Part shown: positions 28,837 through 32,651 of the stretch, one piece after another
Numbering within the stretch: position 1 is the stretch's first letter
Layout: every line of letters starts with the position of its first letter
Origin: Frankia tisae
Lineage (GTDB): Bacteria; Actinomycetota; Actinomycetes; Frankiales; Frankiaceae
DNA: 32,724 bases
NCBI RefSeq assembly: GCF_025403405.1
Contig: NZ_JANEZT010000023.1
Location: forward strand, 1-32,724
Reading direction: 5' to 3'
Made by a program: the position numbers and the translations under genes
The notes under the pieces: generated by a model
What the model was told of the DNA's origin: nothing
Databases searched by the model: none
What the model saw: the letters and a program-made list of their open reading frames with translations, nothing else

Positions 28837-31113
28837 ATGACCGAGCGGCCCGACACGATCCCCGGCCTTGGCCCGGGGCCGGCCGGGCCGCCGCGGCCCG
28901 GCCGGGGCTCGGGCTCGGGTGCGCGAGGTGGCTCGAGGCGGGCCCGCGGTCCTGGCGCGCCGGCCCCGCCGGCCGCAGAGTTGCCCGTGGCCAGGGTCGC
29001 GGTCGACACCCCGCTGACCCACCTCGACCGTCCCTTCGACTACCTCGTCCCGGCCGATCTCGCCGCGGCGGCGGTGCCCGGCTCCCGGGTCCGGGTCCGC
29101 TTCGCCGGCCGGCAGGTCGACGGATTCGTCCTGGAGCGGCTGGCGGCCTCGGAGCACCCCGGCCGGCTCGCCCCGCTGGAGCGGTCGGTCTCGCCGGAGC
29201 CGGTGCTGTCCGAGTCGATCGCCCGGCTCGCCCGCACCGTGGCGGACCGCTACGCCGGAACACTGGCCGACGTCCTTCGCCTCGCCGTCCCACCCCGCCA
29301 CGGCCGTACCGAGACCGCCCCCGTGCCGCCGCGAACCGCCCCCGTGCCGCCGCGAACCGCCATCATGCCGCCGCGAACCGCCACCGCGATGCCCGAGGCC
29401 GCTCCCGGCGAACCGGCGGCCGCTCCTTCCCAGCCGAAGACTTCTCCGCCGGAGACCACCTCCGCCGAGCCGGGGGATTGGGTGCGCTATCCCGCCGGAC
29501 CGTCGATGCTCGCGGCGCTGGCCGCCGGCCGGTCACCGCGTGCCGTGTGGTGGGCGCCACCCGGCCCCGCCTGGCCGGCGATGATCGCCGCCGCGGTCGG
29601 CGCCGCGGTGCGGTCGGGCCGCGGTGCGGTCGTCGTCGTTCCCGACCACCGTGACGTCGATCGGGCGGAGGCCGCGCTGGTAGAGGTGGTCGGGCGTGAG
29701 ATCACCGTCGCCCTGCGGGCCGACCTCGGCCCGTCCCGCCGCTACGGCGCCTTCCTCTCGGCTGCCCGTGGGCAGGCCCGGGTCGTGGTGGGCACCCGGG
29801 CCGCGGTCTTCGCCCCCGTGACCGACCTCGGCCTGCTGGTCGTGTGGGACGACGGGGATGAGCTGCACGCCGAGCCGCTGGCCCCCTACCCGCACACCCG
29901 CGACGTCGCCGTACTGCGCGCCCGCCAGGACGGCTGCGCACTGCTGATCGGTGGCTTCTGCCCGACAACGGAGGCCGAGGCGCTCGTCCGCGGCGGCTGG
30001 GCCCACCCGCTGGCGCTGCCGTTGCTCGAGGTCCGGGCGCTCGCCCCCCGCGTCGAGGCGACCGGTTCGGACCACGAGTACGCCCGCGATCCCGCCGCCC
30101 GCGCGGCGCGGCTGCCCTCCCTCGCGGTCCGCACGGCCCGCCAGGCGCTGGCCGCCGGAGCCCCGGTGCTGGTCCAGGTGCCCCGGCGCGGTTACCAACC
30201 CTCACTGGCGTGCGCGGACTGCCGGCGTCCCGCCCGCTGCCGGCACTGCCAGGGCCCGCTGGGCCGGTCTTCCGGCGCCGGCGTGCTGACCTGCCAGTGG
30301 TGCGGCCGTCCCGTGCCCGCCGCCCCGGGTGGGGCGGTCGAGGCGGTCGGGGCGGCGGTCTGGCGGTGCCCGTCGTGTTCGAGCGAGCGGCTGCGGGCCT
30401 CGGTGACGGGGGACCGGCGCACCGCCGAGGAGCTGGGCCGGGCCTTCCCCGGCGTCCCGGTGCGGACCTCGGGCCGCGACGGCGTGCTCGCCACCGTCCC
30501 CGCGGAGCCGGCGCTCGTCGTCTCCACCCCCGGCGCCGAGCCGGTCGCCGCCGACGGGTACGGCGCGGTGCTGCTCCTCGACGGCTGGGCCCTGCTAGGC
30601 CGTCCCGACCTGCGGGCCGCCGAGACCACCCTGCGGCGCTGGGCGGCGGCGGCGGCGCTGGCCCGCCCGGCGCCACGCGGCGGCCGGGTCATCGTGTCCG
30701 CCGACGCGGGGCTCCCGGTCGTACAGGCCCTGATCCGCTGGGATCCCGCGACCTTCGCCGCCCGGGAGGCCGACGAACGCGCCGAACTCGGGTTCCCGCC
30801 GGCAACCCGGATGGCCACCGTGGAAGGCAGCGCCGCAGCCGTCGCCGAGCTGCTCGCCGCCACCCACCTGCCCGAGGGCGCGGACCTGCTGGGCCCCGTG
30901 CCGCTGCCGCCCGCGGCCGGGCCCGTGCTGGGCGGCAGCCCGCGAGCCGGCGGGCCGGGCGAGGTGAACGAGATTGAACGCCTGCTCATCCGGGTGCCCC
31001 GCGAGCACGGCGCGGCCCTCGCCGCCGCCCTGCACGCAGCCCGCGGCGTCCTCGGCACCCGCCGGAGCACCGCCGGCCTGCGCGTCCAACTCGATCCGCT
31101 CGTCATCGGCTGA
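28837..31113 (+). CDS. priA: Probable replication restart protein PriA (helicase motifs degenerate)
   Basis: A 758-residue PriA homologue. The N-terminal 3'-DNA-binding domain is recognisable (VAVDTPLTHLDRPFDYLVP, GSRVRVRFAGRQVDGFVLE). A Pro/Ala/Thr-rich linker with 21-bp repeats follows. The helicase core is altered: where E. coli has the Walker A GSGKT, this protein reads WWAPPGPAWPAM, and the DEEH box reads WDDGDELH. The cysteine-rich zinc region (about 455-520) has eight cysteines in CADC, CRHC, CQWC and CPSC. Actinobacterial PriA proteins generally lack helicase motifs, so it is probably a DNA-binding replication-restart factor without unwinding activity. ATG 28837 has no clear Shine-Dalgarno sequence. 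Confidence 0.92.
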   Translation: MTERPDTIPGLGPGPAGPPRPGRGSGSGARGGSRRARGPGAPAPPAAELPVARVAVDTPLTHLDRPFDYLVPADLAAAAVPGSRVRVRFAGRQVDGFVLERLAASEHPGRLAPLERSVSPEPVLSESIARLARTVADRYAGTLADVLRLAVPPRHGRTETAPVPPRTAPVPPRTAIMPPRTATAMPEAAPGEPAAAPSQPKTSPPETTSAEPGDWVRYPAGPSMLAALAAGRSPRAVWWAPPGPAWPAMIAAAVGAAVRSGRGAVVVVPDHRDVDRAEAALVEVVGREITVALRADLGPSRRYGAFLSAARGQARVVVGTRAAVFAPVTDLGLLVVWDDGDELHAEPLAPYPHTRDVAVLRARQDGCALLIGGFCPTTEAEALVRGGWAHPLALPLLEVRALAPRVEATGSDHEYARDPAARAARLPSLAVRTARQALAAGAPVLVQVPRRGYQPSLACADCRRPARCRHCQGPLGRSSGAGVLTCQWCGRPVPAAPGGAVEAVGAAVWRCPSCSSERLRASVTGDRRTAEELGRAFPGVPVRTSGRDGVLATVPAEPALVVSTPGAEPVAADGYGAVLLLDGWALLGRPDLRAAETTLRRWAAAAALARPAPRGGRVIVSADAGLPVVQALIRWDPATFAAREADERAELGFPPATRMATVEGSAAAVAELLAATHLPEGADLLGPVPLPPAAGPVLGGSPRAGGPGEVNEIERLLIRVPREHGAALAAALHAARGVLGTRRSTAGLRVQLDPLVIG
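29314..29376 (+). repeat. 21-bp tandem repeat in the priA linker
   Basis: Three consecutive 21-bp units start at 29314, 29335 and 29356. The first two are identical (ACCGCCCCCGTGCCGCCGCG plus A) and the third differs at three bases. They encode TAPVPPR repeats at residues about 160-180, within the flexible linker after the DNA-binding domain. Confidence 0.85.
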
Positions 31114-31673
31114 CGGCGAGCCCGTCACCGCCGAGTGCGGCCCGCCACGGCCCGGGCCCACTGCCGCCCGCTTCCCCGCCAGACTGCTTCCCCGCCCGAC
31201 TGCGGCCAGATCATGCCGAGGGTTAGCCACGGTTTCAGTGCCGAAAACCGCGGCTAACCCTCGGCACGGCTCCGTGCGTGACTGGTCACAGAAGGATGCG
31301 CGAGGGGTGGCGCCCGATGGGCGCGCCGAACGTGGGGCGGCCCCGACCCCGCGGGCATCGCCGGCCGAGCTGGGGGCATCACAGTGTCGGCCCCGCAGAG
31401 GTGAGGAACGGGCCAGCGACAGCGTAGCGACACGAGTAGGACCGCCAGCTCGTCGAGTCCTCGAGACAACCCCGTCCGCCGCCGAGGCCGACCGTCCGTC
31501 ACAGCGGTGGCCGCCCGCGATACGGTCGGGCAGCGGCAGGCCCGAGGACGCCGCCCGTGTCCCCGCCCGCGGGCGACGGCGGACGGTCCCGGGCCAGGCC
31601 GAACAGCTCGGATCATGCCCCCCGTAGACGGCCGCGGCGTTCGTAGGGCGTCGCGGCGGATCGGTGCTCGCGT
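31114..31673. other. 560-base noncoding region between priA and fmt
   Basis: The region has a long hairpin at 31214-31266 but no convincing gene. Open frames on both strands are low-complexity Arg/Pro/Gly/Ala translations without a known motif. Peptide deformylase (def), which often lies between priA and fmt, is absent, and no fragment with its GVGLAAPQ or HEXDH motifs is seen. No clear fmt promoter or ribosome binding site was found. Confidence 0.6.
31214..31266. repeat. 22-bp near-perfect hairpin after priA
   Basis: TGCCGAGGGTTAGCC (31214-31228) pairs with GGCTAACCCTCGGCA (31252-31266). After one A-C mismatch, CGGTTT (31230-31235) pairs with AAACCG (31245-31250) around a 9-base loop. It lies about 100 bases past the priA stop. 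It may be a bidirectional terminator or a copy of a dispersed palindromic element; its composition is less GC-rich than the flanks. Confidence 0.8.
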
Positions 31674-32651
31674 ATGCGTCTAGTTTTTGCCGGCACACCG
31701 GCGGTCGCCCTGCCCAGCCTGCGGGTGTTGATCGACAGCCCGCGCCACGACGTGGTCGCGGTCGTCACCCGCCCCGACCGGCCCGCCGGCCGGGGCCGGA
31801 AGATCAAACCGCCGCCCGTGCACCTGCTCGCCGACGAGGCCGGCATCCCGGTGCTCAGCCCGGAGCGACCGCGTGACCCGGACTTCCTCGCGGCGCTCAC
31901 CGAGCTGGCGCCCGACTGCTGCCCGGTCGTCGCCTACGGCGCCCTGCTGCCCCGGGAGGCCCTGGCGATTCCCCACCAAGGGTGGGTGAACCTGCACTTC
32001 TCGCTGCTGCCGGCCCACCGCGGCGCGGCCCCGGTGCAGCGGACCGTGCTGGCCGGCGACGACCTCACCGGCGCCAGCGTGTTCCAGATCGAACCGGCGA
32101 TGGACTCCGGCCCGGTGTTCGGCGTCGTCACCGAGCGGGTCCGCCCCACCGACACCTCCGGCGACCTGCTCGACCGGCTCGCGGAGTCCGGTGCGCACCT
32201 GCTCGCCGCGGTCATGGACGGCATCGACGACGGAACCCTGCAGGCCGTGCCCCAGCCCGCCGAGGGAATATCGTTCGCGCCGAAGCTGACCGCCCAGGAT
32301 GTGCTGATCGACTGGACCCTGCCGGCGGTCGCCGTGGACCGGCTGACCCGGGCGGCAACGCCCGCACCCGGCGCCTGGACGATGTTCCGGGACCGGCGGC
32401 TCAAGATAGGTCCGGTGCGCGTCGGGGCGCAGAACGCTCCGGACGAACTGGCGCCGGGTCGGTTGGCGGCGCTCGCCGACGGCACGGTCGCCGTGGGCAC
32501 CGGGACAGGCCCGGTGCTGCTCGGCGAGGTGCGGCCCGAGGGCCGAGGGCCGATGAAGGCCGCCGACTGGGCCCGAGGGGCGCGCCTGACCGGCGAGGAC
32601 GTCCTGCTTGCGCCGGCTGGGGCACCCGCCGGCAGTGGGGGAGCCGCATGA
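31674..32651 (+). CDS. fmt: Methionyl-tRNA formyltransferase
   Basis: Transfers a formyl group from 10-formyl-THF to initiator Met-tRNA. The catalytic residues N106, H108 and D144 fall at the same numbers as in E. coli, within [17 protein letters not shown] and EPAMDSGPV. The N-terminal Rossmann domain starts [16 protein letters not shown], and the basic loop [14 protein letters not shown] is present. The C-terminal OB-like domain includes [11 protein letters not shown]. At 325 residues with a Gly/Ala tail the length fits the family. ATG 31674 gives the standard N-terminus, though no Shine-Dalgarno sequence is visible. The stop overlaps the next start (ATGA). Confidence 0.97.

Follow-up and report, generated by a model that had tools for sequence, protein, structure and literature searches.

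A Frankia-specific family of dispersed palindromic repeats with a copy between priA and fmt

The hairpin downstream of priA

Frankia fix nitrogen in partnership with alder and other trees. In the window, the whole analysed stretch of 32,724 nucleotides from Frankia tisae, 560 bases separate the genes for primosomal protein N′ (priA) and methionyl-tRNA formyltransferase (fmt) (Table 1). The relatives of the fmt product are Frankia proteins, with best-segment amino acid identities of 96% in F. gtarii, 94% in F. torreyi CpI1 and 94% in strain QA3. The priA stop codon (31113) is followed, 100 bp on, by a hairpin. It was first in a list of 13 inverted pairs between positions 30500 and 32000. The outer 15 bp of its arms are perfect (TGCCGAGGGTTAGCC/GGCTAACCCTCGGCA), followed inward by an A/C mismatch and the AT-richer CGGTTT/AAACCG. 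The GC content is 62% within the hairpin and 79% and 75% in the flanks. Folding of the 81 nt around the hairpin yielded −47.5 kcal/mol (z −6.84) for the plus-strand RNA and −54.8 kcal/mol (z −7.15) for the minus-strand RNA, a stability matched by none of 200 dinucleotide shuffles on either strand. A sequence-only reading had reported the gap length, the 22-bp hairpin, its perfect outer arms and its AT-richer inner arms; gene coordinates, the inverted-repeat list and folding against shuffles bear it out on all of these.

Table 1. Features of the priA–fmt region in the window and examples of family B hairpins in the same genome
Feature	Position	Strand	Remarks
priA (primosomal protein N′)	28837..31113	+	upstream gene; start may be 28987; PriA domain confirmed
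Long form	31148..31461		74% identical to contig 777 of the same genome, 20742-21063
11-mer CCGCCAGACTG, 5′ repeat copy 1 of 3	31176..31186	+	degenerate; sequence compared with family consensus
Element A core, ~97 bp	31187..31283	+	common to most copies, model positions ~9-105
11-mer CCGCCCGACTG, 5′ repeat copy 2 of 3	31192..31202	+	degenerate; sequence compared with family consensus
11-mer CGGCCAGATCA, 5′ repeat copy 3 of 3	31203..31213	+	abuts hairpin; strongly conserved in family
Hairpin, centre of element A	31214-31235 / 31245-31266		22-nt arms, 95% complementary, 1 mismatch, 9-nt loop
Element A 3′ tail (CGGCTCCGTGCGTGACTGGTCACAGAAGGATGCG...)	31267..31310	+	
fmt (methionyl-tRNA formyltransferase)	31674..32651	+	downstream gene; Fmt domain confirmed
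Family B hairpins, same genome	contig 391:4046; contig 577:10173; contig 222:22938		examples

The hairpin resembles an intrinsic terminator in its stability on both strands and in closely following a stop codon. A T-run does not follow the stem, and a terminator scan of 30900-31800 did not flag the hairpin. T-runs are missing at many actinobacterial transcript ends. The sole match of the scan was located at 31663-31680, overlapping the fmt start. A known structured RNA family was rejected: the window and nine loci of the repeat families described below had no match above the gathering score in Rfam 15, and the matches below threshold were limited to two microRNA-hairpin models.

The gap was also read for a peptide deformylase gene (def), which other actinobacteria had been said often to carry at this place. 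In line with that claim, Parafrankia EUN1f has def immediately before fmt (L031:3255-3812). In the window (31113-31674) and in five Frankia relatives (L027-L030, L034), the gap looks too short or lacks def on reading. The leader before fmt (~31620-31680, GTAGACGGCCGCG..GTCGCGGCGGATCGGTGCTCG) looks conserved by eye across the Frankia relatives. It could form a hairpin, and a 5′ regulatory structure is possible.

Anatomy and distribution of the repeat families

An 18-base arm pattern with up to three mismatches matched 17 times in the 7.07-Mb draft genome of F. tisae versus 7 times for a reversed control. Several matches folded into the same hairpin type and had the same flanks. The pattern was perfect at the window only, for both arms, and the exact 15-mer occurred only at the window place among all fetched loci. 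The search for the exact 15-mer arm, proposed in the sequence-only reading as a check, would probably have missed the family and wrongly refuted a dispersed repeat, because the arms differ among copies.

Covariance models were built from six places in the F. tisae genome (R1) and from 65 copies (R3); their E-values are rough owing to short calibration. Of 68 sources searched at E <= 1e-15, 65 gave a match and entered the alignment, whereas L199, L215 and L216 did not; L198, with a single BLAST partner in an all-versus-all comparison, was left out of the search. The repeat, named element A, is about 100 bp long and has three parts: direct repeats of 11 bp (such as CGGCCAGATNG), a hairpin whose ~26-nt arms are modelled with 24 pairs, and a conserved tail. 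The consensus of the 65 copies reads CGGCCAGAtnGCGGCCAGATCgTGCCGAGGctTaggCACGGTT, a short loop, AAAcCGtgnCtAnnCCTCGGCAcGAtTCtGTgC and then a weaker tail; at the stem foot it has CCAGATCgTGCC on the 5′ side and GGCAcGAtTCtG on the 3′ side. The outer and inner parts of the stem are nearly invariant, the middle is variable, and the number of 11-bp units 5′ of the hairpin differs between copies. The window copy matched at 31179-31310 with 131.7 bits (R1) and 118.9 bits (R3).

Many copies share a common core of about 100 bp that is larger than the hairpin. In a BLAST all-versus-all comparison of 61 copies, most alignments began near model position 10 and ended at 90-115, and those of a long form reached about 200. 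The long form has ~200-320 bp and also occurs in QA3. R1 detected 10 places in the F. tisae genome at E <= 4.1e-16. Since this core, with flanks beyond the stem, occurs at ten places in one genome and at dozens in others, an ordinary single terminator of priA, long by chance, is refuted as the sole explanation and is highly improbable altogether, even though the other copies, too, favour gene 3′ ends.

R1 matched at least 10 of the 13 Frankia genomes at E <= 1e-3. A search at the level of the order yielded genomes of a single family; there, R3 matched at least 11 of 35 genomes at E <= 1e-4, among them at least 10 of the 13 within the genus. For the 22 genomes from six other genera of the family, 21 had no match and one had a marginal match (best E 5e-5), among the matches listed; a relation outside the genus was rejected on this basis. 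Many strong copies were present in five genomes (G000, G001, G004, G005 and G011), among the matches listed. QA3 (G005) has at least 48 distinct places at E <= 1.4e-10, the weakest few being possibly B-like. The safest statement is that the palindromic repeat family is Frankia-specific.

A second family, B, is defined by TGGAGGTTGATNACGGTT arms, with 34 + 34 pattern matches versus 0 + 4 for the control. Hairpins with TTGCTGGAGGTTGATGACGGTT arms amounted to 22 distinct ones among 30 loci (L095-L124) in the F. tisae genome, compared with 10 strong A copies; counts of B from its model, R2, are upper limits among the matches listed, because R2 also matches A copies, and weak R1 matches include B. 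Seven of the 22 B hairpins were in convergent gaps, three in tandem gaps, one inside a predicted gene and 11 at an edge. B lies ~60-200 bp from A in several cases (contigs 245, 264 and 878 of the F. tisae genome), and QA3 has A/B neighbours at 1655308/1655454 and 3229988/3229854. Both families are probably related, since the B model weakly recognises A copies.

Further hairpin types were noticed in gap E2, one of the orthologous gaps compared below. A third type (CTGTTCCTTCTGGGGG..CCCCCAGAAGGAACA), seen at L255 and L256 (G011, G004), has a similar flank of its own, which is also present, by eye, at L018 of the F. tisae genome. It is perhaps another dispersed family. A fourth type (GGTCGCCGTGGGGGCG..CGCCCCCATGGCGACC) was seen at L261 and L262 (G009, G012). 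Hairpin sets may differ between lineages.

Placement, presence and conservation of element A

Element A is intergenic and far commoner in convergent than in divergent gaps. None of 61 copies overlapped a predicted gene; convergent gaps accounted for 26, tandem gaps for 24 and divergent gaps for 3, and 8 were at stretch edges. Copies were tallied from the best score downwards (40 of at least 48 from G005, 17 of at least ~20 from G001, 3 of at least ~19 from G011, and the window), with genes called by a home-made codon model. The bias was significant against length shares of 25/50/25% for convergent, tandem and divergent gaps (chi-square p = 4e-5), a small background of 132 kb from the window and five 20-kb QA3 stretches chosen around copies. 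Convergent versus divergent gaps alone (26 vs 3) gave p = 1.5e-5. Copies in tandem gaps had no orientation preference, with 11 in the same and 13 in the opposite orientation. Nine further copies in the F. tisae genome were in four convergent, one tandem and one divergent gap, and three at an edge.

This placement and the indifference to orientation are expected of a portable, bidirectional transcript-end element, a family kept mainly for ending converging or tandem transcripts with mobility as a secondary trait. The same position bias is also expected from any insertion that avoids promoters. Comparison of orthologous gaps bears on both readings. Element A is present at some of these gaps and absent from them in other genomes.

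In the priA–fmt gap, the window has A, F. gtarii a decayed A (R3, E 1e-4) and QA3 a B (R2, E 3e-8). F. torreyi CpI1, AgB32 and F. canadensis had no model match in this gap, which also speaks against an ordinary single terminator of priA. In a hairpin scan of the gap, the window copy alone exceeded its shuffles.

At gap E1, G005, G001 and G011 carry A, G000 carries B and G010 a weak B. Other hairpins occur there in G002, G007, G008 and G009, and a weak A-like hairpin in G003; a hairpin was not found in G004. The scan detected a hairpin in 5 of 8 gaps, all 5 above shuffles, and two others had weaker A- or B-like hairpins. At gap E2, G005 carries A and G003 a palindromic repeat; the hairpins of G004, G011, G009 and G012 are unrelated. 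Of 10 genomes scanned, 6 gave a hairpin, which outscored all 30 shuffles in 5 cases. G001, G007, G008 and G002 gave none; in G002, the stop codons are 3 bp apart. The bulge-broken A of QA3 at E2 scored 10 versus a shuffle maximum of 13. Gap limits in the scan were rough, and the E2 gap of QA3 was taken as the whole 650 bases. A hairpin at every orthologous gap is not general, given the E2 scan and the lack of one in G004 at E1.

At gap E3, A is present in G005 and G001 and absent in G011, G000, G010 and G004. An ordinary hairpin, by eye clear in 5 of 6 sequences, already adjoins the A site, so A is not needed as a terminator there. Gap E4 has an A+B pair in G005 and G011 and neither in G001 and G010, in an alignment of these four genomes that left out L282 of the F. 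tisae genome and L283-L287. The sharing patterns at E3 (G005 with G001) and E4 (G005 with G011) conflict, so that a copy must have been lost, gained in parallel or exchanged at least once. The alignments of E3, E4 and the copy ends revealed no clean target-site duplication.

The occurrence of A, B or unrelated strong hairpins at one junction in different lineages, as at E1 and E2, is what a portable transcript-end element would produce, and unrelated hairpins in the same gap would also suit single terminators. Against a family kept mainly for termination are the gaps lacking a hairpin at E2 and, in G004, at E1, the redundancy at E3, and conservation that differs from a prediction for pure termination: 11-mers outside the main stem are conserved, and compensatory changes are few. 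Retention mainly for ending transcripts is a serious possibility, to which we give somewhat less than even credence. A transcript-end role as such fits the position of A and its lack of orientation preference, and judging from E3 it would not always be needed.

Conservation was assessed with eight A copies, among those fetched, that occupy the same place in two genomes. Within one alignment each, with gaps counted as mismatches, the core was 75-90% identical, nearby intergenic DNA 31-61% and coding DNA 65-95%. In this biased sample, the core is conserved and its intergenic neighbours are not. Both partners had to match the model, so that decayed partners, such as the A of F. gtarii at priA–fmt, were missed and the constraint on the core is overstated by some amount. 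Seven of the eight pairs entered the following comparisons (L216 was under the alignment threshold). Their core identity was 0.79-0.91, versus a mean of 0.75 and a maximum of 0.92 among non-matching G005-G001 copies. The true partner ranked first in 4 of 6 testable comparisons, and second and fourth in the others. The similarity of shared copies could partly reflect gene conversion. The old copies may have been kept in these eight cases or homogenised by exchange.

For 168 stem pairs in the seven shared copies, 132 were unchanged and paired and 12 were unpaired in both. Seven single changes kept pairing, one was a compensatory double change and 16 lost or gained pairing. Most stem changes fail to keep pairing, so the sequence itself seems constrained. 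Across 35 modelled pairs and 65 copies, 86.3% of the cells were paired. The covariation score, in an alignment fitted to the model, was 0.148 versus 0.124 in shuffles; it was reached by 0 of 500 shuffles and exceeded all six slides. Two of five covariation measures were less clear, being reached by 18 and 8 of 500 shuffles.

Mode of spread and comparison with known systems

The hairpin downstream of priA is probably a copy of a Frankia-specific, apparently non-coding, dispersed palindromic family that was spread in trans and kept at gene 3′ ends. Most likely, element A is a palindromic repeat that moves or once moved; the safest statement is that it is mobile on an evolutionary scale and REP-like. 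Copies would be made by a transposition-like process with an enzyme acting in trans, presumably not a RAYT, that may recognise the hairpin plus the 11-mers. Insertions would survive chiefly between converging genes or past stop codons. There, the strong hairpin in either orientation could add a protein-binding site, a transcript end (through termination or through protection of the 3′ end), or both. Such an added role would account for old copies keeping their sequence. A search for RAYT and Y1 proteins in the 13 genomes did not find a mobilising enzyme for A.

Miniature inverted-repeat elements (MITEs), derived from a DDE transposon by internal deletion, would explain the long form of A and its presence or absence at orthologous gaps. 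The palindrome is central and not terminal, however, and terminal inverted repeats or target duplications were not seen by eye, with copy ends resolved less finely than to the base. The closest A pair in G005 is 4754 bp apart, among the at least 48 places listed, so that no gene of normal IS length is bracketed by two listed A copies there. A MITE is unlikely. Element A as the ends of a larger transposon was rejected, since close A pairs did not occur in G005 among the matches listed.

Mobilisation by a RAYT, as for REPs and REPINs, is suggested by palindromic, dispersed and extragenic copies with a 3′-end bias and by A+B clusters. The only Y1 match in the F. tisae genome, a PF01797 relic (L126:4700-5350, contig 290), is ~550 bp from an A copy, and a Y1 fragment at L251 is accompanied by a partial B match (E 3e-4) that is truncated where the locus ends. 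Yet the relic has an internal TGA and is by eye an IS605-type TnpA beside a TnpB-like piece. None of 13 genomes, several of them drafts 85-99% complete, encodes a RAYT over the NF047646 cut-off, a cut-off exceeded by 1 of 14 members of the control set. Y1 proteins were detected in 8 of 13 genomes, two representatives being IS200/IS605 TnpA (NCBIfam), and G001 and G010, which bear A or B, had no Y1 match. Among 30 Y1 loci, one had A on one side and one the partial B; a transposase gene flanked by the repeat was not found there, the neighbour of A being a broken gene. The link to RAYTs, prompted by the relic, was dropped, and a GTAG or CGTC tag is not conserved at the stem foot in the 65-copy consensus. 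RAYT mobilisation is hardly credible for this family. With neither a RAYT over the cut-off in the 13 genomes nor a conserved tag, A is REP-like but outside the described REP classes. The suggestion of a mobile or REP-like palindrome in the sequence-only reading therefore stands for dispersed intergenic copies with presence and absence, and fails for the described RAYT-associated GTAG or CGTC kind.

A more far-reaching proposal, tentative and rather doubtful as a whole, regards A as a new palindromic class. The 11-mers and the hairpin would form a module for a putative single-strand nuclease or chromosomal protein. Element A would spread through Frankia, land at gene 3′ ends and persist there as a portable structure that ends transcripts or organises DNA in either orientation; at one and the same gene junction, one hairpin family would take the place of another.

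If the family is what it appears to be, Frankia genomes hold an unannotated, lineage-specific repeat layer that may alter gene ends. The repeats could then be strain markers, would point to a putative mobilising activity, and offer an experimental handle on whether mobile hairpins turn into working transcript ends. Rolling-circle replication origins have direct repeats beside a hairpin. The ~11-bp direct repeats that abut the hairpin of A resemble them in layout only; by analogy, they suggest recognition by a protein. Among titles and abstract openings of the mainly freely accessible literature, no earlier description of such Frankia repeats was found, and the accessible parts of two Frankia papers (PMC2770080, PMC3188489) do not describe them.

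The REP super-families GTAG and CGTC (Di Nocera et al. 2013, PMC3733652) are likewise dispersed extragenic palindromes that form dimers and lie mostly downstream of genes, and A matches the definition of REPs as dispersed, many-copy, extragenic palindromes. CGTC REPs, as described there, also lack a dedicated transposase. REP units are 20-40 bp long with stems of 5-13 bp, whereas A has a core of ~97 bp and arms of 22 bp in the window; it lacks the tag and adds 11-bp direct repeats and a tail. The main text of that paper has no occurrence of Frankia or Actinobacteria, and the phyla it names for REPs exclude Actinobacteria. REPINs and BIMEs with RAYT/TnpA-REP, going by the accessible text of PMC2817692 and PMC6006769, share clustered hairpins with A, and single-strand DNA may be a substrate for A as well; the difference lies in the 13 Frankia genomes without a RAYT over the cut-off and in the proximity of only 2 of 30 Y1 loci to A or B. 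The Ype, Efa and Bor stem-loop families of Yersinia, Enterococcus and Bordetella share with A the preference for the 3′ side of genes and for convergent gaps (PMC1590033). RNA 3′-end roles were suggested for them; a direct-repeat module, which A has, is not mentioned in the accessible text of that paper.
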